Assembly: GCF_026151205.1 (NCBI RefSeq)
Contig: NC_087075.1
Span: 16,196,752 to 16,260,751, forward strand
Direction of reading: 5' to 3'
Length of the DNA stretch: 64,000 nt
DNA from: Bolinopsis microptera
Lineage: Eukaryota > Ctenophora > Tentaculata > Lobata > Bolinopsidae
Shown: in pieces, positions 10,083 through 55,200 of the stretch
Layout of the letters: the number at the start of each line of letters is the position of its first letter
Position numbering within the stretch: position 1 is the stretch's first letter
Program-made: the position numbers and the translations under genes
Notes under the pieces: model-generated
Database searches by the model: none
What the model was told of the DNA's origin: nothing
Seen by the model: only the letters and a program-made list of their open reading frames with translations

Positions 10083-11400
10083 GTATTTTTACTGCAAATT
10101 TTTAAACATTTGTTATCACTTAATTGTTATGCAAATGGTTACCAGAGGGTTACGATCTGTACCCCTGCTTCTCAGCCCTAAATTTGCCTTGATTAATAGT
10201 TTAAGAGTAGAAGAGGTCGTATCAGAATTTTTATTCAACTTATATAATCCGACAACGACCTTATTCTAGTTCTACTTCTAAGATTTAAGCCTAAGAAATG
10301 TCGAGGACCTCTTTAAACTTAGATATTTTGCTTTAAAAAGGAACAATTGCCAAGTGATGAGCACTTAAAGTATAAAACTGTGCATGTGAACAACTCTTTT
10401 GTTTATAAATATTTTTGGCAGCTATTAAGGGAAATTAAATACTAAACTCTTGCACGTGAAAACAGTCTTTAACTTTCGTTTTAAAATAACCTCCAACTAA
10501 AAGTAATAGAGGTAAGGTAAAACTTTCTTCTATAGTTTTAATCGGGTCAGCACAATTCGGAATATTGATTATTAGTATGACGTAGAAATGGGCGATCATC
10601 TATTTACCTTTCCCCATAAACATTTTCATTTGCGGAATTTATTCAGAAAAAAACCGGAAATTTTCTTGAAAGTCACAAACCTCGGTCAGTAAGTTAAAAC
10701 CTGTGCCCCGTTTGAGCATCCTTCTCCGAACCCTGCTACATCACGGTGAACGTAACAAAACTCTGACTGCTTCTCCATGGCATCAACCCGCTGTTTTTAC
10801 TTTTTGGAGTGGGTTACTTAGTTTGCTATCACTTTTGGTATTACATTCGCTTTCGTTTTTCACTTTTACTCTAACATATTTGTATGATGGAATAATTTAA
10901 GGCTTCTTAGAAAATATGCTTTTCGAATTAAATTTGGGTGGGTAATCGATCATATAAAAAGTAAAAATGGAGCCGGGAATATCTTTTAAAAAAACCCCTC
11001 TGCACAAAATTAAAAAGTGAAATACACGCTTTAACTCCTGAAAAAGTATATTATCTCATTTCTGCAGGTATTAAGGCACAGCTCTATTATAGAGCCACTA
11101 ACTCACTAGGGTATAAGTTATAACCTCACTAATTATATTGACTTGTTTGAGCTCCACCTAAACCTCTTAACCCATCCTACTATAATTAGGCATCGAAGTC
11201 GTCCCATTTAACACGATCCTTCTGGGCGGCGCTCAGTCTGCCGAATCTTTATTATGTTTATGAACATTATAGGTGAACACGGTCTCTAGGTAAACACGAT
11301 CCCCAAAATTCCCTCCCCCTGTTTGCTTCTAGTCAAGGAACAGGGTCCCCCATACCCTCCCCCTGTTAATTTCTAGTCAAGGCAGGCCCCCAACGCTGCA
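10083..11400. other. Transition zone, no gene seen
   Basis: Accuracy improves across this stretch. Reading frames of 60-90 codons are present but have no recognisable motif. Part of the dispersed GGGCGGCGCTCAG motif occurs at 11223-11300. Confidence 0.5.
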
Positions 11401-21751: not shown

Positions 21752-21759
21752 CATTTTGT
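21752..21759. repeat. Left 8-bp target-site duplication CATTTTGT
   Basis: An identical octamer occurs at 33024-33031, immediately outside the other end of the giant element. Confidence 0.9.
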
Positions 21760-22676
21760 GGCACTATCCGTCGCGGAGTAGAGTCCGCGGCGGAGCCGCC
21801 GGACTCCGAGCGGACTCCGAGCGGACTCCGAGCGGACTCCGAGCGGACTCCGGCGGTGCTCCGCCAAAATGTATTTACACTGGACTCGAGTACATTTTGG
21901 CGGACTCCGAGCGGAGCCGAGCGGACTTTAAAGTCCGCCGCGGACTCCGAGCGGCTCCGCGGCGGCTCGGCGGAGTGTCCGCCGCGGACTAAGCCACTAG
22001 GCGGACTCCGGTCCGCCGCGGACTCCGGCGGAGTGCTTGGCGGACTCCGCCGGACCTCTCCGCCAGACTTGAATCCGGCGGAGTCCGGCGGAGCTTGGAC
22101 TCCGCTCGGAGTCCGCCGGACTCCAACAGAGTCCACTGACTTCCGACCTCCGACTTCCGACCCTCGGCTAAATTTGTCACGTGACATACAACATAGCCAA
22201 TAGCATTTTGCGATATTGTGGTCAGATGAAAAGGTCGCTAGTGATAAACCTTAACCATTACCCTCACAATGTCAATAGTGTACAACTCTAGTCCTAACTT
22301 TGACCCTATAATGTATAAACGTTGACCCTAACCCTCCACCAAACCGCCAGCAGCGAAATATCAATGTCATTGACTGGTCACGTGACCAAAACAATTTTTG
22401 TCATATTATCTCATATAGGGAAGCGTTTTTAGTTTTACACTACACGTTGCATGTGGCGTCATTCGGCCGGATCCCAGCAAGCAAAAATACGTCGACCATC
22501 ACAGGACGACGCCAGCACTCTCTACGCTCGTCGAGCTCCGATCGTCCTGTGACGAAGTAAGGACGAAGCGAAGCCTGAGGTCCTCAGGTAACATCGACCA
22601 CCGATTGAAAATTCAGAGATTTTTTGACATAAAGGTCAAATGTAAAACTAAAATCTTGATGTTAATTGATTGACGA
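21760..22676 (+). repeat. Left TIR of the giant transposon
   Basis: The outer part (21760-22135) is very GC-rich and built from the 11-bp unit CGGACTCCGAG and variants such as GGCGGAGTCCG, in both orientations. The inner part is ordinary sequence and carries CACGTGAC E-boxes and the palindrome GCCTGAGGTCCTCAGGTAA (about 22575-22593). It matches the right TIR base for base over long stretches, with few differences. The left copy retains the site into which the 590-bp element inserted in the right copy (about 22247-22253, CTTAACC). Confidence 0.92.
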
Positions 22677-23160
22677 CGTTGGACGTGACGTCAATTTTTG
22701 AGCACAGCGCGAGCGCATGCGGAAAAGGACCGCGTAGCTAGTCAAGATCCCAGGAAAAGTTACCGGCCAGCGGGCGCGCCACCAATATGATAGTTTCGAT
22801 ACAGCTGAAGACACCGCGCGTGTCTGTCAAGTAATTAGCCATTACAATTCATGTTTAGATTGCGCGCGCATAGGAATTCTGTCAAGAATAGTTAAATTTG
22901 ACCACAAAATGCCATAAATATATTCACAATGATTGGATAATGATGGTAAAAATTTAATCTTTAAAAGAATTTTTGAATTTTTAGTTTTCGTTCAACAAAA
23001 CCGATTTTACAGTTCAAAAGCAGAATTTTCAACTTTTTAATAACAATCCCTTCACGCCGCGCCGATATGTGTTTCTGTACTAATTTGCGCTCTTATTTCG
23101 CGTTGGATACTTTTACCTATAGATATGTCATTCTATAATTAGGATTGTTTCTGGGGCTCG
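22677..23160. other. 5' region of the transposon gene
   Basis: Unique subterminal sequence between the TIR and the ORF. GAGCACAGCGCGAGCGCATGC at about 22699 has a noisy counterpart at about 1683, so it belongs to the element family. No ORF of note is present. Confidence 0.6.
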
Positions 23161-23165
23161 CTTGC

Positions 23166-23177
23166 AATATATATATT
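23166..23177 (+). promoter_or_regulatory. TATA-like box of the 1261-aa gene
   Basis: AATATATATATT lies about 75 bp before the start codon, at a plausible distance for a short 5' UTR. Called by position and composition only. Confidence 0.4.
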
Positions 23178-23248
23178 CAACATTTTCTTTCCTATTTCCG
23201 TACATTTTGTATTTTCCTCGTTCGTGGTAATTAGTTTTTATTAGCACA

Positions 23249-26200
23249 ATGAGCAAACGATCACGTACCGAAATAGAAGTTCAATTTCTTAGCGACTGTG
23301 TATACTCTGCGTTAGTCAAATCTGGATACTCAAAGCTTCCTTTCTGTAAGTACATTTTGGCACATTTTGTATTGTCAGAATTTGACGGACGCGTAGAAGA
23401 CCATGTGAATCAATTTCCCCATTATTTTGGTTACGTTCGTAATTACTTGGATTCGCGAAATTTTCGTCGAATTATTGGTCAAGCCAAGTGTATCGCCGAT
23501 AATAAAGAGGTTTTAGATTCTCTTAAGCAGACTTATAGGAGTGATCAAATTCGCATTTCACATGAAAACAGTAGGCCACAAGTAGAAGGCGTCCCTTGTA
23601 GTGTTTGTTTTAATTTGTCAAACAATGACGGAGGTGATAATTTGAAAAGTAGATGCAACAAAATTTTATCCGGATTTGCTAATAACGAGTTAGGTCGTGG
23701 AAAGAGTTTTAAGGAAATCCATGAATGCATTTGCAGGACTTCCTACGAAATTCTTTCTAGCTACGATAAAAGTGTCGAAAATTTCGAAATATCTTTGAGC
23801 GAATTAAAAGTGGAATTTGAGCGGTACAAATCGGAACTAACCATCAATGTTGCAAAATTCAATGATCATTTAACCGAGGCTAGTGCGCTTATCCACTATG
23901 GCAGTGGTCTTTCAGGAAGTCAGGTCGAGAATTTAGACCGTACTATATTTTGCACTGAATTTTCTAAAACAGACATCGAGCAACATCTGTCTAATCTACC
24001 AGATTATCGCCACATTAAGTCATCCGATCCAAATATTGAGCTTGGGGACCTGTTTAATGAATACTGTTCGCACGTCCTTACGTACCATTTCGAACCAAGT
24101 TTCTTTAAACTGGGTACAAAATATAGTTTAACTGGCCCTAAAGGAGGGAAAAGATTGTCCGATTATGCACAATCTGTCTGCTTAAATTACCTTTTACTTC
24201 CGAGAAATCATGGTATTTACAGTGAGTTAAGACCCATACTTGCTGTCCACAGTAATGCTCGGACACGCTACAAGCCCCACCCTCTAGTTGACGATCTTTA
24301 TATCCCAAGAATTCCTCCAGCTAGTGTCGCTGATGAAAAAGTTGAAATACTAAGAGAACTCCAATCAATTTTGCTGGGGACTCCCCAGATACCACTTTTG
24401 TATGAAGGTTGGGATTTGGTTAAATCATGTCCTAAACAGGTAGCAGCTAACTCACGATTAGTTGACCTTATGTCAATTAGAGAACATTCCCTAAGTTTCC
24501 AGTCTGGTAATAATTTCTTGAAGGCCAAACCAAAAGAGCATTACCAAAATTTGTCGATTGACGAGGTGAAATGCACCTTAAAGAGTTATAGTTTGATTTG
24601 TGAGAGCGACTTCCAAAAATACGACGAAAGTTTTCTTAGAAAAAAACTTGAAGAAGCTGAGTCTACAAGGAGCTTTGCAATGTGGTATGATCACGCCGTT
24701 ATTTTAAACAGAAGTTACATCCTTTTTGTCGTTTGGCCTTTATACAGCAAGTCCCTTTACCAATCAAATGATCTATGTGAAGGGGATTTACAAAAAGCTG
24801 TCGAGCAAATTTACATCCATTACATAGCTATGTCTCCTTCGACAACCAAAAGCGAAGAGGCATTACAAGAATTTAGAACTAACCAGTTAGCTGCCTTTAA
24901 AGTTACAATTAAAACAAACTGCGGAATCGAATTCACGGACAGATTAAAATTTGTGAATGGCGATGCGCCTGTAAGGAGTGTTGAGAATGGTTCAAACAAG
25001 AGTGGACCGTATCGTAATCCTACCTTATTAGAATGCTTCCCTATAGATCATTATGAATATTACGAAATTGTAAAATTTGAACACATGACATTCGACAAAA
25101 CTACAAAACATGCTAATAAAGGTGGGTTCTTCGAAAATCCTGAAAATCGCGGAAAATCGCTACAAGATTTAAAAGATAAACCCGCCTCAGCATTAGAACT
25201 AATGAAAATAAGATGGCCACATAAGCGTCTTGATAATATGAATAGCGAACAGATAAAAGAGTTTTTGAAAAATGACTTAGGGGGTATAAGGCGACCCCCT
25301 ATTCTATTCATGGCTACTCCTGATAAATCACCTGAAGAAATTGGTCTTGAAGGGGCTGAACTTTTGGGAAATGAATGTCTTCATGGTCTCAGAGGCGAAA
25401 CCCTCAAATCATTCAAACACATTCCAGGACCTCAAGGTGACGGACCATTAAAATTAGTACATGAGATTATATCCAATTGTTGTAATTTTGATTACGGATC
25501 AAAACACGAAAAATCTGGCGAGTCAGTTTTTAAGAATTTAATTGAAATTGTCCAGAAACTAGAAATGAAATTATTTCCAGACGGGTTGTCCTGTAATATT
25601 TGCGGGGATATTTTTACTTTGTCAATTGTGACCAAATGTCCTAAATGCCTTTATTATACTTACTTCAGAGCACTTCTAGAAATTCATATATTTGGATACA
25701 AAGATGAGTCTAAACGGTCAGGTGCCTCCACATTGCTGCTTCATAATATAATTTTTGTATGGTTTAAAACTTTGAAAGAAATACAGATTACGATACCTAC
25801 TGCTCTTAAAGTTATTAATTCTATTTACTTCCTCGGCATAGTTTACTACATGGGTCCAACATTCGAACTTACTAACTTTTTGTCAGTGCATGCCGGACGC
25901 ATGGAAGATATTTTTCGGCAACTGAAGGTCTCTGCTCACAGTTTTACCAATCGAAAACACTTTCAAGAGAGTTTCCTGCTTAATGTCCTAAAACGTCAAG
26001 AAATCTCCAGATACTTTAAAACTGCAAACAATTTCAAAACTTATCGTAGCACAGTTTCTTCTGCCATCACTGCATTTCATCAAAGAAGTCCTATTCCTGA
26101 CATTGTTTTTACCAAAGAATTTATAACGTCCAACATCCAAGACTTTGCAGGACACGTTTATCGCATTTCAAATTTTGTCGTTTCCAATACTAATGAACGA

Positions 26201-27034
26201 TATATGAGTTTGTCCTCGGAAAACGACCTTAAATTCTTTTCCTCTAGAGAATGTCGCTCAGAAAACTGTCTGTCATCATGCCCACCATGTTTATCAAAGT
26301 TATTTCCTGATTTCCCAATCCACAATATATTGACATCAACGATTGAGATAATTCTAAATACCAAAGCTGCTATCTATCAGAAATTTGCTTGCAACATTTT
26401 TGTCAATGGTGGGGTAGATTTCTCCAATTTGCGTAAACTATTAGGTCAGGGCCCACTATTAACACCTGATATCATAACGTCAAGCGAAATAATAGAAAAT
26501 ATTAACATTGATAGGGAAAATCCTAGCAGACAAAAGCTGCCAGCAAACTTTTCGTCAATGTTGAAATTATTGATTGAAATGTTTCCCTCTGATCCTGAAA
26601 AATACGATAAGCTTAAACACAGCAACATGGCTAAATGTATTTCCAAAATTCTTAACGCAGTCCCAGATGAAATTATTCACTTAGACAGTAGTAGTCGCAG
26701 ATTAGCCTTGGCATCATCTAGTTGTATTAAGGATCCAAAAGACAGTAATAATAATAGACAGCATAATGAATTAGCATACTATACAAGTAGGATTACGGAC
26801 TCAATTGAACTCATAAGCACCAAATTGTTATCTTACCAAAAAGACATCGACAAACTATCAGGTGCCGTAGATAAATTAATTACTAATAGGCAATCAACCG
26901 ATTCCATTGAGGACAATCAGTTTGTCAAGAAACTTAGAGAAAAACAAAAATTAAAGCTCATAGCTCTCGAAGTCTTGAACAAGCTCACCTATGAAATTAA
27001 TACTCACAATTATTTTATGTACAGATCACTATAA
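23249..27034 (+). CDS. 1261-aa protein of the giant transposon, candidate transposase
   Basis: A single uninterrupted exon begins at an ATG in context GCACAATGAGC and ends TAA. The N-terminus is basic (MSKRSRTE). Cysteine clusters occur at residues 117/120 (CSVC), 782-800 (CxxC-x11-CxxC, CNIC...CPKC, a zinc-ribbon pattern) and 1002-1014 (CRSENCLSSCPPC). Charged, coiled-coil-like sequence occupies about 1175-1250. Conserved-looking blocks are MWYDHAV with D481/H482, RPPILFMATP near 685, NECLHGL with E709 and H712, and GRMEDIFRQLK with E886. From memory these blocks resemble a multicopy family of large uncharacterised proteins in cnidarians and sponges that carry a W-DH block and an EPLHD-like block. 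The TIR and TSD context makes a transposase role likely, with D481 and E886 as candidate catalytic acids, but this is inference. No helicase, polymerase or integrase motif was recognised. Most codons end in A or T, unlike the GC-rich TIRs. Confidence 0.9.
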   Translation: MSKRSRTEIEVQFLSDCVYSALVKSGYSKLPFCKYILAHFVLSEFDGRVEDHVNQFPHYFGYVRNYLDSRNFRRIIGQAKCIADNKEVLDSLKQTYRSDQIRISHENSRPQVEGVPCSVCFNLSNNDGGDNLKSRCNKILSGFANNELGRGKSFKEIHECICRTSYEILSSYDKSVENFEISLSELKVEFERYKSELTINVAKFNDHLTEASALIHYGSGLSGSQVENLDRTIFCTEFSKTDIEQHLSNLPDYRHIKSSDPNIELGDLFNEYCSHVLTYHFEPSFFKLGTKYSLTGPKGGKRLSDYAQSVCLNYLLLPRNHGIYSELRPILAVHSNARTRYKPHPLVDDLYIPRIPPASVADEKVEILRELQSILLGTPQIPLLYEGWDLVKSCPKQVAANSRLVDLMSIREHSLSFQSGNNFLKAKPKEHYQNLSIDEVKCTLKSYSLICESDFQKYDESFLRKKLEEAESTRSFAMWYDHAVILNRSYILFVVWPLYSKSLYQSNDLCEGDLQKAVEQIYIHYIAMSPSTTKSEEALQEFRTNQLAAFKVTIKTNCGIEFTDRLKFVNGDAPVRSVENGSNKSGPYRNPTLLECFPIDHYEYYEIVKFEHMTFDKTTKHANKGGFFENPENRGKSLQDLKDKPASALELMKIRWPHKRLDNMNSEQIKEFLKNDLGGIRRPPILFMATPDKSPEEIGLEGAELLGNECLHGLRGETLKSFKHIPGPQGDGPLKLVHEIISNCCNFDYGSKHEKSGESVFKNLIEIVQKLEMKLFPDGLSCNICGDIFTLSIVTKCPKCLYYTYFRALLEIHIFGYKDESKRSGASTLLLHNIIFVWFKTLKEIQITIPTALKVINSIYFLGIVYYMGPTFELTNFLSVHAGRMEDIFRQLKVSAHSFTNRKHFQESFLLNVLKRQEISRYFKTANNFKTYRSTVSSAITAFHQRSPIPDIVFTKEFITSNIQDFAGHVYRISNFVVSNTNERYMSLSSENDLKFFSSRECRSENCLSSCPPCLSKLFPDFPIHNILTSTIEIILNTKAAIYQKFACNIFVNGGVDFSNLRKLLGQGPLLTPDIITSSEIIENINIDRENPSRQKLPANFSSMLKLLIEMFPSDPEKYDKLKHSNMAKCISKILNAVPDEIIHLDSSSRRLALASSSCIKDPKDSNNNRQHNELAYYTSRITDSIELISTKLLSYQKDIDKLSGAVDKLITNRQSTDSIEDNQFVKKLREKQKLKLIALEVLNKLTYEINTHNYFMYRSL

Positions 27035-28500
27035 ATATTAGAGCAAGCAAGTCCTTGTAACCTATTTTGTATCATTCAGTATGATTTATTTTGTGTCGAT
27101 TTCAAGTATTATTTATTTTGTGTCAATTGTTCGGTGTAAGTATTAAATAAGTCAGATTGATTCTATTGCAGTTATTTTATGTATCGTGACAAATTTATTT
27201 TATGATTGATTTATTCCAAGTTAAGTCATTGCATTTATATTATTTTTATTACATATTTTTATCTTGACTAAATTCAACAAAATTCAACGAAAATTTGTCG
27301 AGCAAAACATGTTTACATGTTTTTGAATCCAAAAAGAGTAGTTGCGAAAATTATTTGTTTATTATATACATTTTTAACATTATTTTTGAGAGAAAGATTG
27401 AGAAATTGACTGTTGTGTGAGGAGCCATGAAGTACTCATTGAGTTAAGATCCCCTATTCGATCCTGCTAGTTGTGTGGTTGAAAAACACTGCATTAGGCT
27501 AGATTGTGGATCATAGTGTTGAGCTGGCTCAATGACTGCCTTGGAATTCACACCAGGAAGGAAATGAGCTACCAAATTTAGTTATGAAAGATAGGGAAGG
27601 GATTTGATGTAGTAACTTACATTTTTACAAAGTAGTTGGGAAGTAGTTGCTAAATAAATGCAGGGTAAAGTTTAGTTGGTGTAGTAAAAGTATCATGTTA
27701 AGCTTGTTTTCTTCTGGAAAAGGTCAGTGTCTCGTTTTATTATTATTTTATCGTCTGTTATTGTAATTATAAGAATCATAATTTTGTAACGTTTTAAATC
27801 ATTTGTAAAAACATAACAAATATCTGATGCTGCTTTAATAGGTAAGACCTCCTCGTTGGTAAGCAGTGGGTGATGCAGATTTTGTTGGCTATGATTAACC
27901 GTTTGTGGGATAATGGCAGGGAGTTTATCCTTATTTTCACGTTTCACAGTAATCGAATTAACATTTTGCTCTTAGAACATTCGCTCGAGAAATATATTCC
28001 CTGCCATTGCTCATTTAATGCTGTAAAACATCATCTACAAGCTTGATGTTTTACAGTATGTTATTTTTCCAGCTACAATTTTTGTATTAGCAGACTATAC
28101 CTTATTTTATTTTAAAATATTTTAACTGTATTTTAAGTGTGAGTGCAGAATTGAACTGTGTTGATATGTTCCTACAAGATTACAACTGGTTGTACTGTAA
28201 GTCTTCTGAGTACCAGCTCAGTACCCCTCACCTTCCTGGTTATATCGTAGAGAAAATCTGACTTTGCCACAACTACGTTCATATTTTGTACAATACAAGG
28301 TGATTTTCATTCAGTTTTAAGTCTGTTTAGTAACATTTTAACGTGAATATGACATCACCTGACTATCAGCTCTGTTCTATGCTCATTGAGAACGTTCAAA
28401 TCAAATTACAACAAAATTGTCATTTTTTCCGATTCTTGGAATATAGTTTAATATTTCATATCCCTTTTTGAATGGTGATTATGTTATTTAAAATAATCTT
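27035..28500. other. 3' region of the transposon gene
   Basis: AT-rich, with repeats of TATTTATTTTGTGTC at 27080-27125. No clear AATAAA follows the stop; AATAAG lies at about 27145. An exon-like piece at 28152-28200 (after GTGAGTGCAG and before GTAAGTC) is open in one frame but too short to support. No other gene was seen. Confidence 0.5.
28021..28056. other. Perfect 13-bp hairpin
   Basis: CTGTAAAACATCA and its exact complement TGATGTTTTACAG are separated by 10 bases. It does not match the histone 3' stem-loop. It may be an RNA hairpin near the 3' end of the element's transcript, or chance. Confidence 0.6.
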
Positions 28501-28513
28501 ATCTTAACTTCAG

Positions 28514-28617
28514 ACAGTGTTTCGGAGGGTGACAGTTCCTTCGCTTAAGTACACCAAGACTTCTTTTGAGATGAGGATAAGAATTAGGACCGGTGTCCAG
28601 CTTTCCCTGTACGAAAG
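28514..28617 (+). CDS. Exon-like segment, copy 1 of a tandem pair (unrecognised)
   Basis: Flanked by TTAACTTCAG and GTAAGT, and open in one frame: TVFRRVTVPSLKYTKTSFEM and on. It is 256 bp before a second copy at 28770. Over the shared VTVPSLKYTKTSFEMRIRI stretch, all five nucleotide differences fall at synonymous third positions, which suggests selection on a protein. No start codon or partner exons were identified. It lies inside the giant transposon, so it may be an exon of a second element gene or captured host sequence. Confidence 0.35.
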
Positions 28618-28769
28618 GTAAGTTATGTCTATCTCTGAGAGCACGTTTCCTTGATGTGTGTAGTGGATTTTTGTTCCGGGGTAGGTGAGACATGTTTTGG
28701 TGGTTTAATAGTTAGCACCTGTCCCAAATGGTGATTATGTTATTTATAATAATGTTATCTTAACTTCAG

Positions 28770-28934
28770 ACAGAAATTCGAAGGGTGACAGTTCCATCTC
28801 TTAAATACACCAAAACTTCATTTGAGATGAGGATAAGAATTTCATTTTGGACCGGTGTCCGATGGAAGGGAAGTTATGTTTCTCTGTCAGCTTGCCAAAT
28901 GTTTTCTATCCTTCACTGCAATCGTCAAAAACAC
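28770..28934 (+). CDS. Exon-like segment, copy 2 of a tandem pair (unrecognised)
   Basis: 165 nt, exactly 55 codons, open throughout, between TTAACTTCAG and GTAAGT. It begins TEIRRVTVPSLKYTKTSFEM and ends FSILHCNRQKH. Relative to copy 1 it has a 6-base in-frame insertion (ISFW against I-R) and a different end. Selection is indicated by the synonymous differences described for copy 1. I do not recognise the protein family. Confidence 0.35.
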
Positions 28935-29397
28935 GTAAGTATTAATATGATCTTAAATTAAGAATTCTATAACAGACGCGCGCGGCCCTGAATCTTACAG
29001 TGCCTCTATGTCAAGGTGACACCCTTTTCCAGCCATTCCATATAAAAAGAGATAGCTTAATTCACATTCTTCTACTGTTCTAGCAAGTTTTTGACTACTT
29101 ATGATGTATAAAGCAAATAGTGTCAGTTAAGTAAAACAGAAAGCGCGCGCACATACGCGCATATTTTCTTTTTGATTGTATTGTCGATATTATGTATTAT
29201 TTATGTCTACCCAAATTTTTTCAGGGAGTCTACTTAAAGATCATGAACATTTTCAACATTCGTCTGAAGGAACTGTAGCGTAAATATATCTGCAAAGACA
29301 GAACATTCTAACTTACTCACCGGATTGGATCGAGCTGTTTTGAAATGTGAAACAAATGAGTAACCTATAAATATTTGTTTTATTAGAATTGGTTTAA

Positions 29398-29680
29398 CCC
29401 CCCAGTTCCATGGCCAGATATTATGCCAAATTATTAGACGGAGGTCCATTTCCCGTAGATCATCTCCGGAGATGATTCTCCGGCTCCGTCAACTGTATTA
29501 GACGGAGATTAAGCTCTGAGCTCTCCGGGAATTTCTCGGAGATTAATTCATACATAATCATACAGAATCAACAAAATTACCGTAGATGGTCTCCGGTCAT
29601 GGAACTGCAAACCGGAGAAATATCAGTAGACGATCTCCGTCTAATAATTTGGCATAATATCCGGCCGTGGAACTGGGGTG
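29398..29680. mobile_element. 283-bp MITE with ~50-bp TIRs and TAA duplication
   Basis: The left end CCCCCCAGTTCCATGGCCAG and the right end (complement of CACCCCAGTTCCACGGCCGG) continue into a shared GATATTATGCCAAATTATTA GACGGAG stretch. TAA flanks both sides (29395-29397, 29681-29683). The interior repeats GTAGATNNTCTCCGG motifs in both orientations. A 3-bp TAA target fits PIF/Harbinger-type insertion. It is nested in the giant transposon. Confidence 0.85.
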
Positions 29681-29699
29681 TAAGGAATTGCTTTCTTAT

Positions 29700-30090
29700 G
29701 ATTTAAATTATTTATAGCGTTGTAGGGCCCTGAAAGTAGATGTTTGGGGCCGTTCACATTACGTAATCGGAGCCCACTCGGAGAGAGAGGCGGTGTTTAT
29801 ATGATAACGTTTGTGTAATTTTAACACAATAACTAACTTGTAACTGTAAAACTGGTTATATAGGGAGTAAGGGAGCTAAAATAGGCTGAAAAGTGATGTC
29901 TTAACATATGATCGGAACGACTCTCAGCTGTTTTATTGTAATTGGTGCATCTTGCTCTTATTATTTAAATTTTAGCGTTGTCATGTAGGCCCTGAAAGCA
30001 GATGTTTGGGGCCTCGGGCCATTTACATTACGTAATCATTGCGAAGAGAGAGGCGGTCTTCATATGATGTTTGTTTGTGTAATTTTACGA
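29700..30090. repeat. Diverged tandem duplication (~255-bp period)
   Basis: Both copies carry TTTATAGCGTTG or a variant, then AGGCCCTGAAAG(C/T)AGATGTTTGGGGCC, then TTACATTACGTAATC, then GAGAGAGGCGGT. The CACATTACGTAAT part resembles the end of the Harbinger-like MITE at 20142. Confidence 0.7.
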
Positions 30091-30758
30091 GCCAGATGTT
30101 TTGTGTTTGAGTCAAAAGTTCTAAATATTCTGTTACTGCAGTGCACAGCAAGTTCATCGAGTGTAGTATGAACTTTCAGCACATAAGATAAGAACTACTG
30201 AGCAGCTGGATAGTTACTCATTCAGATGTGAAATCATTGTACATTTGTTTAATCGAAAGACGCTTTCAATTTTGTTCAAAACAGTGTTCACTTCAATTAA
30301 AATTAATGGGATCCACTTGATTATCCCAAAGCAACAAAATGGACAGAAAAGACTATAACAGTTTTGGAAACTACTTCGTAATAAGTGCTGCAGGCGATCG
30401 GCAAAATACGTACTCTTATCACTTATCTTCACGCGCATTTCCAAATATGGTCATGCATGATGACGTCACACGCATAACAACGGGTTTATTTTGCAAAGTT
30501 ATTTTTCTAGCTTGTTGCGCGCAGCATCAAAAACAGTTTTTCTGTAATAACTTTTTAAAATGAGAAGCCCCAATTTTCCTCCTGGGGAGGTAACGTTATT
30601 TTTACAAGACGAACATTTTGCAAAAAACCGGAAGTCTCTATCTTTTTTACTTCCGAAGTTAGGCCCCTAACGGTTAGGTTTCCTGGGATGTTGATAAATA
30701 TTCGGCTTGTGGCGCGATGTGTTGCTCTAAGTCTAACTATAGCCCTCTCGCTTGCAGT

Positions 30759-30831
30759 TACTGGGCCGCGCTCAGCCTGTCATTCTGCCTAATCTCTATT
30801 AACAACATTAAAGCCTGGGGTCCTCAGGTAA
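30759..30831 (+). repeat. Dispersed palindrome motif, copy inside the giant transposon
   Basis: TACTGGGCCGCGCTCAGCCT ... GCCTGGGGTCCTCAGGTAA. The 3' block differs at one position from a palindrome in both TIRs (GCCTGAGGTCCTCAGGTAA). Confidence 0.75.
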
Positions 30832-30835
30832 GCTT

Positions 30836-31497
30836 GCAGTAGCGCGCGACCGCCGGAGGCGGAAATGACCTGGTTAGCTAGGTAAACGCGATGTGCCTTG
30901 TAGGATGAAATCCTACTAGCTGACGCCACTCACAGCTGTGCTGCTCGCTGTACGTCAGCGATCGAAATTTATACGCGTATCCCCCGTTAAGATGTGCCAC
31001 CCGACGTGCCACACAATTTTTCTCGTTGCTCGTCGCACGTCGACGAACAACGAAGCTCGTTGCGACGCGCAATGAGCTGCCAGGCTAGGACATCGTCCTG
31101 GTCCAACAAATTTTGGCGAGCGATTTTCTCCAAAAATTTAATGAGGGCGCCGACTTCCACTCTGGCTAGGTTTCTTTTTACCCAGCGCGCGTTCCTTAAT
31201 GGGATGAGGTAAAATTAGGTAAAAAGAATCCACTGACTTGGCCAGAGTGCTTTCATAAAACTCTATTACTAGCTTGGCGTTGTAGGATTATATACTTTAA
31301 TTTCGGATCGAGTGAAGCGAGTGATACACATTACTTTGATTAAACTCATGCTGATCACAATACAGTACAGGGAAATGGGTAACACGGCTTGCAGTCGCAG
31401 CTGCGGCTCCTCGCTGGCGGTAATATTTCAATGAACAAGAATTAAGAAAGAGAGAATTTAAGAAAAAGAGAATTTTATTTGCCAAAGAAATTGACGC
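30836..31497. other. Right subterminal region of the giant transposon
   Basis: It contains CAGTAGCGCGCGACCGCCGG, a palindrome-rich stretch at 31015-31075 (CGTTGCTCGTCGCACG and CGTGCGACG-like arms), and CTGGCTAGGTTTCTTTTTAC. Parts recur in the noisy element at 1780-2260, so this is element sequence rather than host DNA. No gene. Confidence 0.65.
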
Positions 31498-33023
31498 CGT
31501 CAATCAATCAACATCAAGATTTTAGTTTTACATTTGACCTTTATGTCAAAAAATCTTTGAATTTTCAATCGGTGGTCGATGTTACCTGAGGACCTCAGGC
31601 TTCGTCCTTACTTCGTCACAGGACGATCGGAGCTCGAAGAGCGTAGAGAGTGCTGGCTGGCGTCGTCCTGTGATGGTCGACGTATTTTTGCTTGCTGGGA
31701 TCCGGCCGAATGACGCCACATGCAACGTGTAGGGTAAAACTAAAAACGCTTCCCTATATGAGATAATATGACAAAAATTGTTTTGGTCACGTGACCAGTC
31801 AATGACATTGATATTTCGCTGCGGACGGTTTGGTGGAGGGTTAGGGTCAACGTTTATACATTATAGGGTCAAAGTTAGGACTAGAGTTGTACACTATTGA
31901 CATTGTGAGGGTAATGGTTAAGTAGGTAGTGCGCCATCGACAGTGAGCCGCGCGTGCCGACTGTAGGATGGTTTTTTAGCGCTAATTTCGGCCAGCACAA
32001 TTTTCTTCAAACAAATAAATATTGAGTATCCTTCCCGACCTCCAATTGCAACAAAAATTGGTAAGCTTACTCATAGACTTACAAGGAAAGTGTCCGAAAA
32101 ATTTAAAGCATATCCAATTAACAGACATTATGCTAAAAGCAGCGTATTTTGCCCCATTTTGATCACTATATCAACTGCGATATCCACCAAATTTTTCGGA
32201 CAGTTGTAAAAGCCCTATTGGAAGGTCGTCGCCAATTTTCAGAATGATCTCATTTAAGGAACTGAAGATAAATCCGAATAATACGACAAAAATGGTCAAA
32301 TTTGGACGAATTTGGTCAAATTACGCGACTTTTACAGCTACTTTTGCTCCAAAAGCCGCGCACCATCAAATATGGCACTTAGGCGAAATTCACTGATCTT
32401 TCCAAAAAGGTATGACAAATTTGGTATTGTGAAAATTCTCACAGTCTCTAGAAAACACTGGTACAAAATTTTTTAAAATCCGAGCAAGTTTATTTTTATC
32501 GTGCACCTCCTAGGTTAAGGTTTATCACTAGCGACCTTTTCATCTGACCACAATATTGCAAAATGCTATGTTGTATGTCACGTGACAAATTTAGCCGAGG
32601 GTTGGAAGTCGGATTTCGGAAGTCAGTGGACTCTGTTGGAGTCCGGCGGACTCCGAGCGGAGTCCGCCGAGCTGGCGGAGTCCGCCAAGCTCCGCCGGAC
32701 TCCGCCGGATTCAAGTCTGGCGGAGAGGTCCGGCGGAGTCCGCCAAGCACTCCGCCGGAGTCCGCGGCGGACCGGAGTCCGCCTAGTGGCTTAGTCCGCG
32801 GCGGACACTCCGCCGAGCCGCCGCGGAGCCGCTCGGAGTCCGCGGCGGACTTTAAAGTCCGCTCGGAGTCCGCTCGGCTCCGCTCGGAGTCCGCCAAAAT
32901 GTACTCGAGTCCAGTGTAAATACATTTTGGCGGAGCACCGCCGGAGTCCGCTCGGAGTCCGCTCGGAGTCCGCTCGGAGTCCGGCGGCTCCGCCGCGGAC
33001 TCTACTCCGCGACGGATAGTGCC
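31498..33023 (-). repeat. Right TIR of the giant transposon (interrupted)
   Basis: Reverse complement of the left TIR, split by the nested insertion at 31923-32512. The GC-rich 11-mer block occupies 32630-33010. Its terminus GCGACGGATAGTGCC is the exact complement of the left terminus. Confidence 0.92.
31923..32512. mobile_element. 590-bp nested transposon with 7-bp TSD
   Basis: It interrupts the right TIR. GGTTAAG is present at 31916-31922 and again at 32513-32519, and the left TIR has the uninterrupted site. Imperfect short TIRs are TAGGTAGTGCGC and, reading inward from the other end, TAGGAGGTGCAC. There is no ORF. The superfamily is uncertain from the 7-bp duplication. Confidence 0.9.
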
Positions 33024-33031
33024 CATTTTGT
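33024..33031. repeat. Right 8-bp target-site duplication CATTTTGT
   Basis: Identical to 21752-21759 and directly adjacent to the terminal base of the transposon. Confidence 0.9.
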
Positions 33032-51395: not shown

Positions 51396-51885
51396 AGGGC
51401 TCAATTCTGGGCTGCTACTCACCAGCTAGATAAATGTTGAGTACTGATTCTTTTACGTGTAGGTAGGTAATATAATACCGCCGTGATCTAATGAAATGTC
51501 ACGTTACCTTACCTGCTGACATTAAACTCGGTATTCTGAGCTCTCGGACGGGTCACGTTAAGTGCACGTGACGCATTTAATCATGTTCCTGTACTCTGGA
51601 ATGCCTGTAATCTACATCCGAATAATTTGGTTCGTCGGCTCGTTGTGACTTGTGACTCATTTCTAATTCTTGATTTCGTGTCTTTGTAAGCTTACACTAA
51701 ACCTGGCCTGTTTTATTAGCTTGTTTAAATCGACGCATCTTTGTTGACGAGACACTTATACTTCTTGGCAGGTACGTGGAAGATTTATAGTAAAGAGGAT
51801 TTCTTAAGTTATAAAAATCAGATAAATTCAGCTTAACCCAGCTAAACTTAGCCCAATTCTTATCATGAAATAGTGTAAGAAGCTC

Positions 51886-52618
51886 CCTCTTCCCTCTTCC
51901 CTCTTCCCTCTTCCCTCTTCCCTCTTCCCTCTTCCCTCTTCCCTCTTCCCTCTTCCCTCTTCCCTCTTCCCTCTTCCCTCTTCCCTCTTCCCTCTTCCCT
52001 CTTCCCTCTTCCCTCTTCCCTCTTCCCTCTTCCCTCTTCCCTCTTCCCTCTTCCCTCTTCCCTCTTCCCTCTTCCCTCTTCCCTCTTCCCTCTTCCCTCT
52101 TCCCTCTTCCCTCTTCCCTCTTCCCTCTTCCCTCTTCCCTCTTCCCTCTTCCCTCTTCCCTCTTCCCTCTTCCCTCTTCCCTCTTCCCTCTTCCCTCTTC
52201 CCTCTTCCCTCTTCCCTCTTCCCTCTTCCCTCTTCCCTCTTCCCTCTTCCCTCTTCCCTCTTCCCTCTTCCCTCTTCCCTCTTCCCTCTTCCCTCTTCCC
52301 TCTTCCCTCTTCCCTCTTCCCTCTTCCCTCTTCCCTCTTCCCTCTTCCCTCTTCCCTCTTCCCTCTTCCCTCTTCCCTCTTCCCTCTTCCCTCTTCCCTC
52401 TTCCCTCTTCCCTCTTCCCTCTTCCCTCTTCCCTCTTCCCTCTTCCCTCTTCCCTCTTCCCTCTTCCCTCTTCCCTCTTCCCTCTTCCCTCTCCCATCTT
52501 CCATCTCCATCTCCCTCTCTCCCTCTTCCCTCTTCCCTCTTCCCTCTCCCATCTTCCATCTCCATCTCCCTCTCTCCCTCCCCCTCTCTCTCTCTCTCCC
52601 TCTCTCCCTCTCTCCCTT
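51886..52618. repeat. Heptamer satellite (CCCTCTT)n with a degenerate pyrimidine tail
   Basis: About 87 nearly perfect 7-bp copies to 52490, followed by CCCATCTTCCATCTCCATCT-type variants and CTCTCTCCC runs. Long glutamate/arginine-rich frames on the minus strand are artefacts of the repeat. Confidence 0.98.
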
Positions 52619-53244
52619 TAGCAGGATTACTTCTTTTGACTTAACACGCTCAGCAAGAATGAATAATTCTTCGCGCGTTACGTAGTTTATATAGGTGCAG
52701 CGGAAAATGGAGGTTTTTACACCAGTGCAAGCTCCAGTGTAGTGTAATATGTATGTACTACGGCTTTAAGTACGTCATTTTATAGTGATAAGATACAGAA
52801 ACTCACGCGGAGTATTCAAATTTCAGTGATAAGAAGTACAGGATAAAAACAAATTATTCCAGCAACTACTTTCTAACTGGTATCAATCTTGTGAAGACTC
52901 TCTCCTACACCCAAGTTATCAGGTTTGTAAACGTTTTATAGAATTTAGAAGACAAAATCTTCCTTCTCAAATTATTTGTCGTAGATAACATTCATTTTTT
53001 TGCCCTAATCGCTCCTTGTGCCTTACTCTGCTTAGTGCTGTATTCGACCTTGGCTAACTGTGAGAAATTTCCGGGCATTGACTGTTTATTAGTGTATTGG
53101 TAGGCAGTATTGCTACTGTTAGTTCAATTGCTTTGAAAGGACTGACATTTTTTCAATTCCTAGAATTGCAGGATTTTTCGAGAATTGTAGCATATACAAT
53201 GACCTTTTTTCATGTCCATATGGGATTGTTCCTTAATTCCTTAT
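52619..53244. other. Unique spacer between two arrays
   Basis: No gene seen. Confidence 0.5.
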
Positions 53245-55200
53245 TACACACCCTCCTAGCTTCCCCTTAGATGTGACAATAAGTTACCCGGCACACCCTC
53301 CTAGCCTCCCCCTAGATGTGACAATAAGTTGCCCGGAACACCCCCCTAGCCTCCCCCTAGATGTGACAATAAGTTACCCGGCACACCCTCCTAGCCTCCC
53401 CCTAGATGTGACAATAAGTTGCCCGGAACACCCTCCTAGCCTCCCCTAGATGTGACAATAAGTTGCCCGGTACACCCCCCCTAGCCTCCCCCTAGATGTG
53501 ACAATAAGTTGCCCGGCACACCCCTCTAGCCTCCCCCTAGATGTGACAATAAGTTACCCGGCACACCCTCCTAGCCTCCCCTAGATGTGACAATAAGTTA
53601 CCCGGTACACCCTCCTAGCCTCCCCCTAGATGTGACAATAAGTTACCCGGCACACCCTCCTAGCCTCCCCCTAGATGTGACAATAATTTACCCGGCACAC
53701 CCTCCTAGCCTCCCCCTAGATGTGACAATAAGTTACCCGGCACACCCTCCCAGCCTCCCCCTAGATGTGACAATAAGTTACCTAGCACACCCTCCTAGCC
53801 TCCCCCTAGATGTGACAATAAGTTACCCGGCACACCCTCCTAGCCTCCCCCTAGATGTGACAATAAGTTACCCGGAACACCCTCCTAGCCTCCCCCTAGA
53901 TGTGACAATAAGTTACCCAGCACACCCTCCTAGCCTCCCCTAGATGTGACAATAAGTTACCCGGTACACCCTCCTAGCCTCCCCCTAGATGTGACAATAA
54001 GTTACCCGGCACACCCTCCTAGCCTCCCCCTAGATGTGACAATAAGTTACCCAGCACACCCTCCTAGCCTCCCCCTAGATGTGACAATAAGTTACCCGGC
54101 ACACCCTCCTAGCCTCCCCCTAGATGTGACAATAAGTTACCCGGCACACCCTCCTAGCCTCCCCCTAGATGTGACAATAAGTTGCCCGGAACACCCCCCT
54201 AGCCTCCCCCTAGATGTGACAATAAGTTACCCGGCACACCCTCCTAGCCTCCCCCTAGATGTGACAATAAGTTGCCCGGAACACCCTCCTAGCCTCCCCC
54301 TAGATGTGACAATAAGTTGCCCGGTACACCCCCCCTAGCCTCCCCCTAGATGTGACAATAAGTTGCCCGGCACACCCCTCTAGCCTCCCCCTAGATGTGA
54401 CAATAAGTTACCCGGCACACCCTCCTAGCCTCCCCTAGATGTGACAATAAGTTACCCGGTACACCCTCCTAGCCTCCCCCTAGATGTGACAATAAGTTAC
54501 CCGGCACACCCTCCTAGCCTCCCCCTAGATGTGACAATAATTTACCCGGCACACCCTCCTAGCCTCCCCCTAGATGTGACAATAAGTTACCCGGCACACC
54601 CTCCCAGCCTCCCCCTAGATGTGACAATAAGTTACCTAGCACACCCTCCTAGCCTCCCCCTAGATGTGACAATAAGTTACCCGGCACACCCTCCTAGCCT
54701 CCCCCTAGATGTGACAATAAGTTACCGGAACACCCTCCTAGCCTCCCCCTAGATGTGACAATAAGTTACCCAGCACACCCTCCTAGCCTCCCCTAGATGT
54801 GACAATAAGTTACCCGGTACACCCTCCTAGCCTCCCCCTAGATGTGACAATAAGTTACCCGGCACACCCTCCTAGCCTCCCCCTAGATGTGACAATAAGT
54901 TACCCAGCACACCCTCCTAGCCTCCCCCTAGATGTGACAATAAGTTACCCGGCACACCCTCCTAGCCTCCCCCTAGATGTGACAATAAGTTACCCGGCAC
55001 ACACTCCTAGCCTCCCCCTAGATGTGACAATAAGTTAACAGGCACACCCTCCTAGCCTCCCCCTAGATGTGACAATAAGTTACCCGGTACACCCTCCTAG
55101 CCTCCCCCTAGATGTGACAATAAGTTGCCCGCCCCACCCCCTACCCCCCCCTAAGTGACAATAAGTTCCCGCCCCCCCCCCTACCCCCCCCCCCTAAGTG
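53245..55200. repeat. 45-bp minisatellite with higher-order structure
   Basis: The unit is CCTCCCCCTAGATGTGACAA plus TAAGTTACCCGGCACACCCT plus CCTAG, about 43 copies. Variant order repeats: the run of variants starting at 53587 is found again at 54441, and that at 53946 again at 54799, a shift of ~854 bp or 19 units. Open plus-strand frames (TISYPAHPPSLPLDV repeats) are by-products of a unit divisible by 3. Confidence 0.97.

Follow-up and report, generated by a model that had tools for sequence, protein, structure and literature searches.

A probable nest of three transposons, one of which encodes a predicted DDE transposase related to the CMCT/RAG1 assemblage

The locus considered here lies in a stretch of 64,000 nucleotides, which we call the window and in which no Rfam family was found at gathering score. 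Between positions 21760 and 33023 it contains long GC-rich terminal inverted repeats (TIRs), a large open reading frame, and several pairs of inverted ends, each pair flanked by a target-site duplication (TSD) of its own length. Its features are as follows:

21752..21759, no strand: left copy of the 8-bp TSD (CATTTTGT), from flank comparison
21760..22748, + strand: left part of the host element, with a long GC-rich TIR (about 0.92-0.99 kb) and CGGACTCCGAG-type repeats
22747..22748, no strand: left copy of the 2-bp TSD (AT) of the nested 7.9-kb element
22749..30687, + strand: nested element of 7,939 bp, 5'-CCCAGGAAA..TTTCCTGGG-3', encoding the transposase; the stretch common to the copies on contigs C7 and C11, its termini repeated genome-wide
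23249..27034, + strand: transposase ORF of 1261 aa; predicted RNase H DDE fold with D481, D572 and E886, helical insertion at about 573-878, CxxC..CxxC at 782-800
30688..30689, no strand: right copy of the 2-bp TSD (AT) of the nested 7.9-kb element
30688..33023, + strand: right part of the host element (centre and right GC-rich TIR), split by a 590-bp MITE
31916..31922, no strand: left copy of the 7-bp TSD (GGTTAAG) of the MITE
31923..32512, no strand: nested MITE of 590 bp, ends TAGGTAGTGC / TAGGAGGTGC, absent from most aligned host copies
32513..32519, no strand: right copy of the 7-bp TSD (GGTTAAG) of the MITE
33024..33031, no strand: right copy of the 8-bp TSD (CATTTTGT), from flank comparison

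We understand this arrangement, with a probability of roughly 0.9, as a nest of three transposons: a non-autonomous host of 2.73 kb, an autonomous element of 7.9 kb whose 1261-aa DDE transposase is a divergent offshoot of the CMCT/RAG1 assemblage, and a MITE of 590 bp. A preliminary description of the same DNA had taken the whole for one complete transposon of 11.3 kb. Its inverted termini and 8-bp flanks are where it had placed them, at 21760 and 33023; the single element is what has to be given up.

The outer element belongs to a numerous family. Its exact inverted termini, GGCACTATCCGTCGCGGAGT, stand at 21760 and 33023 with CATTTTGT outside each, and the arms, of about 0.92 kb or more, are near-identical except for scattered mismatches and short indels, in agreement with the GC-rich TIRs of about 0.92 kb first reported. 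The outer 400 bp or so of these arms contain 59-75% GC, as against 39.5% for the window, and the 11-bp repeats announced in the preliminary description are indeed seen, in the outer part of the arms, as runs of the CGGACTCCGAG-type motif. The end sequence of this GC-rich family is GGCACTATCC. When the genome was searched with the host terminus (265 Mb, 232 contigs), as the preliminary description had advised, 124 forward and 117 reverse places were found at up to two mismatches, 241 ends in total, the reversed control giving none. The 8-bp flanks were then tabulated for 22 end pairs, namely that of the window and 21 further adjacent pairs hand-picked from the first 100 listed places: 16 are identical, one shows a one-base difference and five are unmatched, while among 462 combinations of non-partner flanks none is exact and two are one base apart. 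These counts speak for a genuine 8-bp TSD and for a numerous family.

The host copies are in general short. Among 19 others whose sizes were compared, 17 measure 1.7-5.8 kb, seven of them 2.6-2.9 kb, and none of the 19 is matched by the 1261-aa protein in tblastn (E <= 1e-3). As most of these 19 combine shared ends of about 0.98 kb with a short centre, we take them as non-autonomous. The host element of the window, once its two inserts and their duplications are subtracted, comes to about 2.73 kb, inside the commonest size class seen; most aligned host copies pass from element position 10163 to 10754, without the MITE. Two long copies on contig C1 were considered as the autonomous partner of the family and rejected: that of 17.9 kb contains two long ORFs of reverse-transcriptase type (a reading made by eye), and the 1341-aa ORF of that of 25.3 kb sits in yet another nested element, because the flanks upstream of the copies of this ORF on C12 and C13 match continuously only from position 1385. 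No transposase-like ORF was recognised in the long host copies L033 and L045-L047. Another enzyme, acting with an 8-bp stagger, would have to move the GC-rich family. One may speculate that the repeated motifs of its TIRs are arrays of binding sites.

The limits of the inner element are set by its other copies. A tblastn search of the genome with the protein listed 26 matches, of which three cover the full length without interruption, with an identity that rounds to 100%: C7:16756050-16759832, C11:12729909-12733691 and the copy of the window. The flanks of the first two match element positions 990/994-1540 and 5231/5240-8929 and leave the GC-rich TIRs unaligned; a 134-bp match of 73% in the C11 flank is the single exception outside those limits. 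Three host copies that lack the insert (L032, L043, L049) run straight through the insertion site, position 989 joining 8928 directly in all three, so that the pre-insertion state is seen directly. The ends CCCAGGAAA..TTTCCTGGG are flanked by AT/AT in the window and by GA/GA in C11; the C7 copy has an altered left end. Taken together, the limits of the copies, the inverted ends and the empty sites define the transposase element as positions 22749-30687 of the window, 7,939 bp. Its copies remain 99.4% identical over two 3.7-kb alignments (window against C7 and C11), and this near-identity indicates recent movement.

We can now weigh the reading in which the transposase travels as a unit with the GC-rich TIRs and the 8-bp TSD, in one autonomous element of 11.3 kb, the short copies being its deletion derivatives. 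Matching termini and a TSD do surround the ORF, and the non-autonomous copies have both ends in common, as that reading would have it. Against it, both other intact transposase copies lack the GC-rich TIRs, the junction has inverted ends and a 2-bp TSD of its own, the same junction ends recur elsewhere in the genome, and the insert-free junction of the three host copies is an empty site; we accordingly give it next to no credence. Copies ending elsewhere, which the preliminary description had itself named as what would undo its proposal, were found for the protein-coding part, and the protein is that of a nested element of 7.9 kb, whose TIRs are short and whose TSD measures 2 bp.

The ends of the nested element are themselves widespread. 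At up to two mismatches the left end occurs at 332 places and the right end at 63, controls giving 2 and 0, controls included. Both ends were read in ten non-autonomous copies or arrays, and the 2-bp flanks match in eight of these, where about one in 16 would match by chance. The right end scored was GTTCCTGGG at the expected distance, or the outermost one for L079 and for the C7 array; the count leaves aside L078 (no right end found, left flank as in L076), L088 (interior of an array) and the C7 copy, whose left end is altered. In the two non-matching copies, L080 and L082, the left flank looks like array spacer, and they may be array remnants. A copy on C9, probably an internally deleted transposase copy, has flanks TT..TT when read by eye. 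Many of the left ends are arranged in tandem arrays with a period of about 703 bp, 22 of them consecutive at C7:11710316-11725107. The sequence read at the two ends of this C7 array shows that it is bounded by one 2-bp duplication (AG), an indication that arrays are formed or moved as units. Shorter elements that share the ends of the 7.9-kb element, tandem arrays included, are probably mobilised by its transposase as well.

The ORF is a single uninterrupted one, as first described, open from 23249 to 27034. No Pfam or NCBIfam model matches its 1261-aa product at cut-off. Its full-length relatives comprise ten proteins of 45-87% identity, and a search from P0010 added eight more distant ones together with P0020; among the relatives that were scanned, the one Pfam match is an AlkB-like domain of P0011, a fused protein. 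Sequence searches of solved structures with the protein, with alignments A3 and A4 and with P0112 gave nothing convincing, and no viral contig was confirmed. No row of the 20-row alignment A2, from which P0011 was left out, departs from D572, P574, H712 or E886; 19 rows extend to D481, and each of them has it.

An AlphaFold2 model (mean pLDDT 80.3) places D481 on the strand 473-485, ends the strand 561-570 just before D572 and sets E886 on the helix 879-898, with a helical insertion between. This predicted order of secondary structures is that of the RNase H arrangement of DDE transposases. The RNase H fold for which the preliminary description had proposed to look is consequently there in the structure model, and no Pfam family fits the protein; predicted model and conserved D481, D572 and E886 together provide the DDE/RNase H feature of CMCT transposases. 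In fold comparison both models place RAG1, and most Transib chains among the matches listed, above the P element, and the predicted fold aligns strongly to RAG1/Transib over model residues 202-931. At the level of sequence profiles, neither family gave a significant hhalign match to the one RAG1 sequence used, and the values fall within the range of reversed controls.

The protein had been tentatively compared with KDZ/Zisupton or hAT transposases. Such elements share an 8-bp TSD with the host element alone; the transposase element gives 2-bp TSDs, unfit for hAT, P or Zisupton, and as it also has short TIRs the main ground for that comparison has gone. The KDZ domain PF18758 is not among the Pfam matches of the protein up to E 5, nor among those of the scanned relatives up to E 1, and the hAT dimerisation and BED domains are likewise absent from the matches of the protein up to E 5. 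For want of such matches, and with the weaker structural ranks of these groups, we have set aside the KDZ, hAT and P readings of the protein. That it is nevertheless of hAT, P or KDZ type seems improbable to us: RAG1 and most listed Transib chains outrank the P element in both models, and a sister family carries the C(2)C/H(4)H ligands by which passages of PMC12730594 define CMCT. The fold points to the RAG1/Transib side of that assemblage.

This sister family is a broad one among invertebrates. It comprises 92 proteins including P0020, none with a precomputed Pfam domain, recovered by a search in which scoring was limited to the 7993 candidates with most words in common; its named sources are Nematostella (LOC125563042), Hydractinia (LOC130630393), Actinostola, Paramuricea, Mytilus and Branchiostoma. 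Compared as profiles, the P0020 family and the window family match with probability 100 and E 6e-63 over 714 columns; they share the D, D, H and E positions and the predicted fold, and differ in that their identity is only about 18-21%, that P0020 has 856 aa and that its family has kept the four zinc ligands. In the 20 members of alignment A3, out of the 92, D87, D184, C202, C205, H446, H451 and E470 are invariant, so that the C(2)C/H(4)H ligands are kept in 20 of 20. The spacing is 18 from D to C and 19 from H to E, close to the 19 and 20 of RAG1 (mouse chain numbering).

The zinc-binding region counts as an integral part of RAG1. Passages of PMC12730594 define CMCT transposases by a C(2)C and an H(3-4)H that lie between the second D and the E, with TSDs of 2-5 bp and, in most cases, CA..TG termini. 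The ligands were counted in the 19 window-family rows of A2, since A4 covers only 11 of the 20 proteins P0001-P0020. In none of these rows do the 40 residues that follow the second D contain a C(2)C, and none has an H(3-4)H in the corresponding position; P0017 shows an unrelated one five residues before the E. C782, C785, C797 and C800, on short strands of the model, are present in 19 of 19 rows. This CxxC..CxxC looks like a zinc ribbon, as far as a predicted model can tell, and would then bind metal. As to the other features, the TSD is of 2 bp in the window, in C11, in the C9 copy and in eight of ten non-autonomous copies, and CA..TG termini were not found, the window element ending in CCCAGG..CCTGGG; the paper gives such termini 'in most cases', so that they are not strictly defining.

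How then should the family be placed? To the RAG1 core and Transib it is linked by its predicted fold, its DDE triad and a conserved LH motif in the insertion (H712, facing RAG1 H795 by eye). It departs from them in its 2-bp TSD, in having CxxC..CxxC at 782-800 and no C(2)C/H(4)H, and in the lack of sequence-profile significance. The TSD of Transib and RAG1 is 5 bp. With EnSpm/CACTA, Mirage, Chapaev, Plavaka and ESTA, all of them CMCT, the window element shares a short 2-bp TSD, but its ends are CCCAGG..CCTGGG instead of CA..TG, the zinc ligands are absent and the protein has no Pfam tnp2 match. Since the strict CMCT features are not all present, we call the window family a divergent offshoot of the CMCT/RAG1 assemblage, in which C(2)C/H(4)H was lost and another invariant pair, CxxC..CxxC, is found, and do not file it as a member.

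Many CACTA-like elements of animals are in Repbase, and it is a possibility of some substance, short of an even chance, that the window family is already catalogued there, as EnSpm/CACTA or another CMC lineage. The 2-bp TSD and the CMCT-like motifs of the sister family would agree with this, as would the frequency of relatives in cnidarian, mollusc and amphioxus data. The absence of any Pfam or NCBIfam model for the protein, and of any Pfam model for the scanned relatives beyond the P0011 domain, argues the other way; so do the termini, different from the CA..TG that passages of PMC12730594 give for most CMCT, and the names of the relatives, where a source gives any, which are hypothetical, predicted, unnamed or uncharacterized, save for one Branchiostoma record called AP-5 complex subunit zeta-1. 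A bolder reading of the family, somewhat less likely than an even bet, is that it represents an undescribed animal lineage with a RAG1-like fold, which has dispensed with the C(2)C/H(4)H zinc site common to RAG1 and the other CMCT transposases and apparently replaced it by CxxC..CxxC in the insertion domain, and which mobilises single elements as well as whole tandem arrays with a period of about 703 bp, bounded by one 2-bp duplication. With its unnamed invertebrate sister family it would form a new clade in the assemblage that gave rise to RAG1.

A history of the locus can be proposed along these lines. The non-autonomous 2.73-kb element, with GC-rich TIRs of about 0.95 kb, entered first, with the 8-bp TSD CATTTTGT; the autonomous 7.9-kb element CCCAGGAAA..TTTCCTGGG later entered this host with the 2-bp TSD AT, and the 590-bp MITE entered the right TIR of the host with a 7-bp TSD. 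The nesting, its boundaries and TSDs, the further copies and the conserved motifs are seen in the sequences themselves, and the fold is predicted. The 1261-aa transposase would pair the CCCAGG ends on a RAG1/Transib-like scaffold, D481, D572 and E886 on the RNase H fold would perform the two-metal chemistry of DDE cut-and-paste enzymes, and strand transfer would proceed with a 2-bp stagger, the shorter CCCAGG elements being passengers of the transposase.

Composite loci of this kind are instructive: nested insertions can mimic a new superfamily, and here an 8-bp TSD and giant TIRs would have been ascribed to the wrong enzyme. Passages of PMC12221973 describe a GC-rich motif at ctenophore loop anchors and loops associated with transposable elements; if the host is a ctenophore, a comparison of that motif with the host TIRs would be worthwhile. 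With three intact copies that are nearly identical, the transposase is a plausible candidate for an activity assay. A relative that has the same predicted scaffold without the ligands would offer a natural test of what the zinc site is for, and the P0020 sister family adds candidate relatives for tracing the ancestry of RAG1.

Matches at many-megabase coordinates sit on 13 contigs of the genome searched, which amounts to 265 Mb; this resembles lobate ctenophores with 13 chromosomes. The host element, with its GC-rich terminal inverted repeats, has a mild insertion preference: in 16 exact pairs of target-site duplications, C stands at position 1 in 10/16 and A at position 2 in 10/16, T being favoured thereafter. 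At one locus, L048 (C7:5864410-5869610), the flanks TATTCCTG and CAGGAATT are near reverse complements of one another, as if they had come from inversion or recombination between copies.

A search of the genome for end motifs revealed that non-autonomous CCCAGG..CCTGGG elements, which share the ends of the nested 7.9-kb element, build head-to-tail arrays with a period of ~703 bp, the unit being an element of about 365 bp and a spacer of ~338 bp. Array loci include L071, L072 and L088, and among the arrays are:

C7:11710316-11725107, 22 consecutive left ends, one matching 2-bp duplication at the outer ends
C2:3357221-3363525

An open reading frame of 1341 aa, distinct from the window transposase and without a Pfam match at the cut-off, is present at three sites:

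C1:8335652-8339674 (L093:1993-6015)
C12:1707240-1711262
C13:1589551-1593573

The element that holds it begins TAGGGGGTGCACAATA, and the ends of the window's 590-bp MITE, TAGGAGGTGCAC, are similar to this start; the MITE may be a passenger of that element. Elsewhere in the window, the ORF list contains long tandem repeats of GRGKREE and PPSLPLDVTISYPAH types that resemble coding sequence and stay open in several reading frames:

51697-52765
53575-54338

Among proteins related to the window transposase, the predicted protein P0011 joins the transposase N-terminal part to an AlkB-like 2OG-Fe(II) oxygenase domain (PF13532); it is probably a gene-model fusion, the alternative being that it arose by capture. 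Finally, tblastn of the genome retrieved a further open frame:

C12:5052250-5055570, 1365 aa, 31% identity to the window transposase

This frame, equal in length to the database protein P0019 (1365 aa), is a distant, second lineage of the window transposase family within the same genome.
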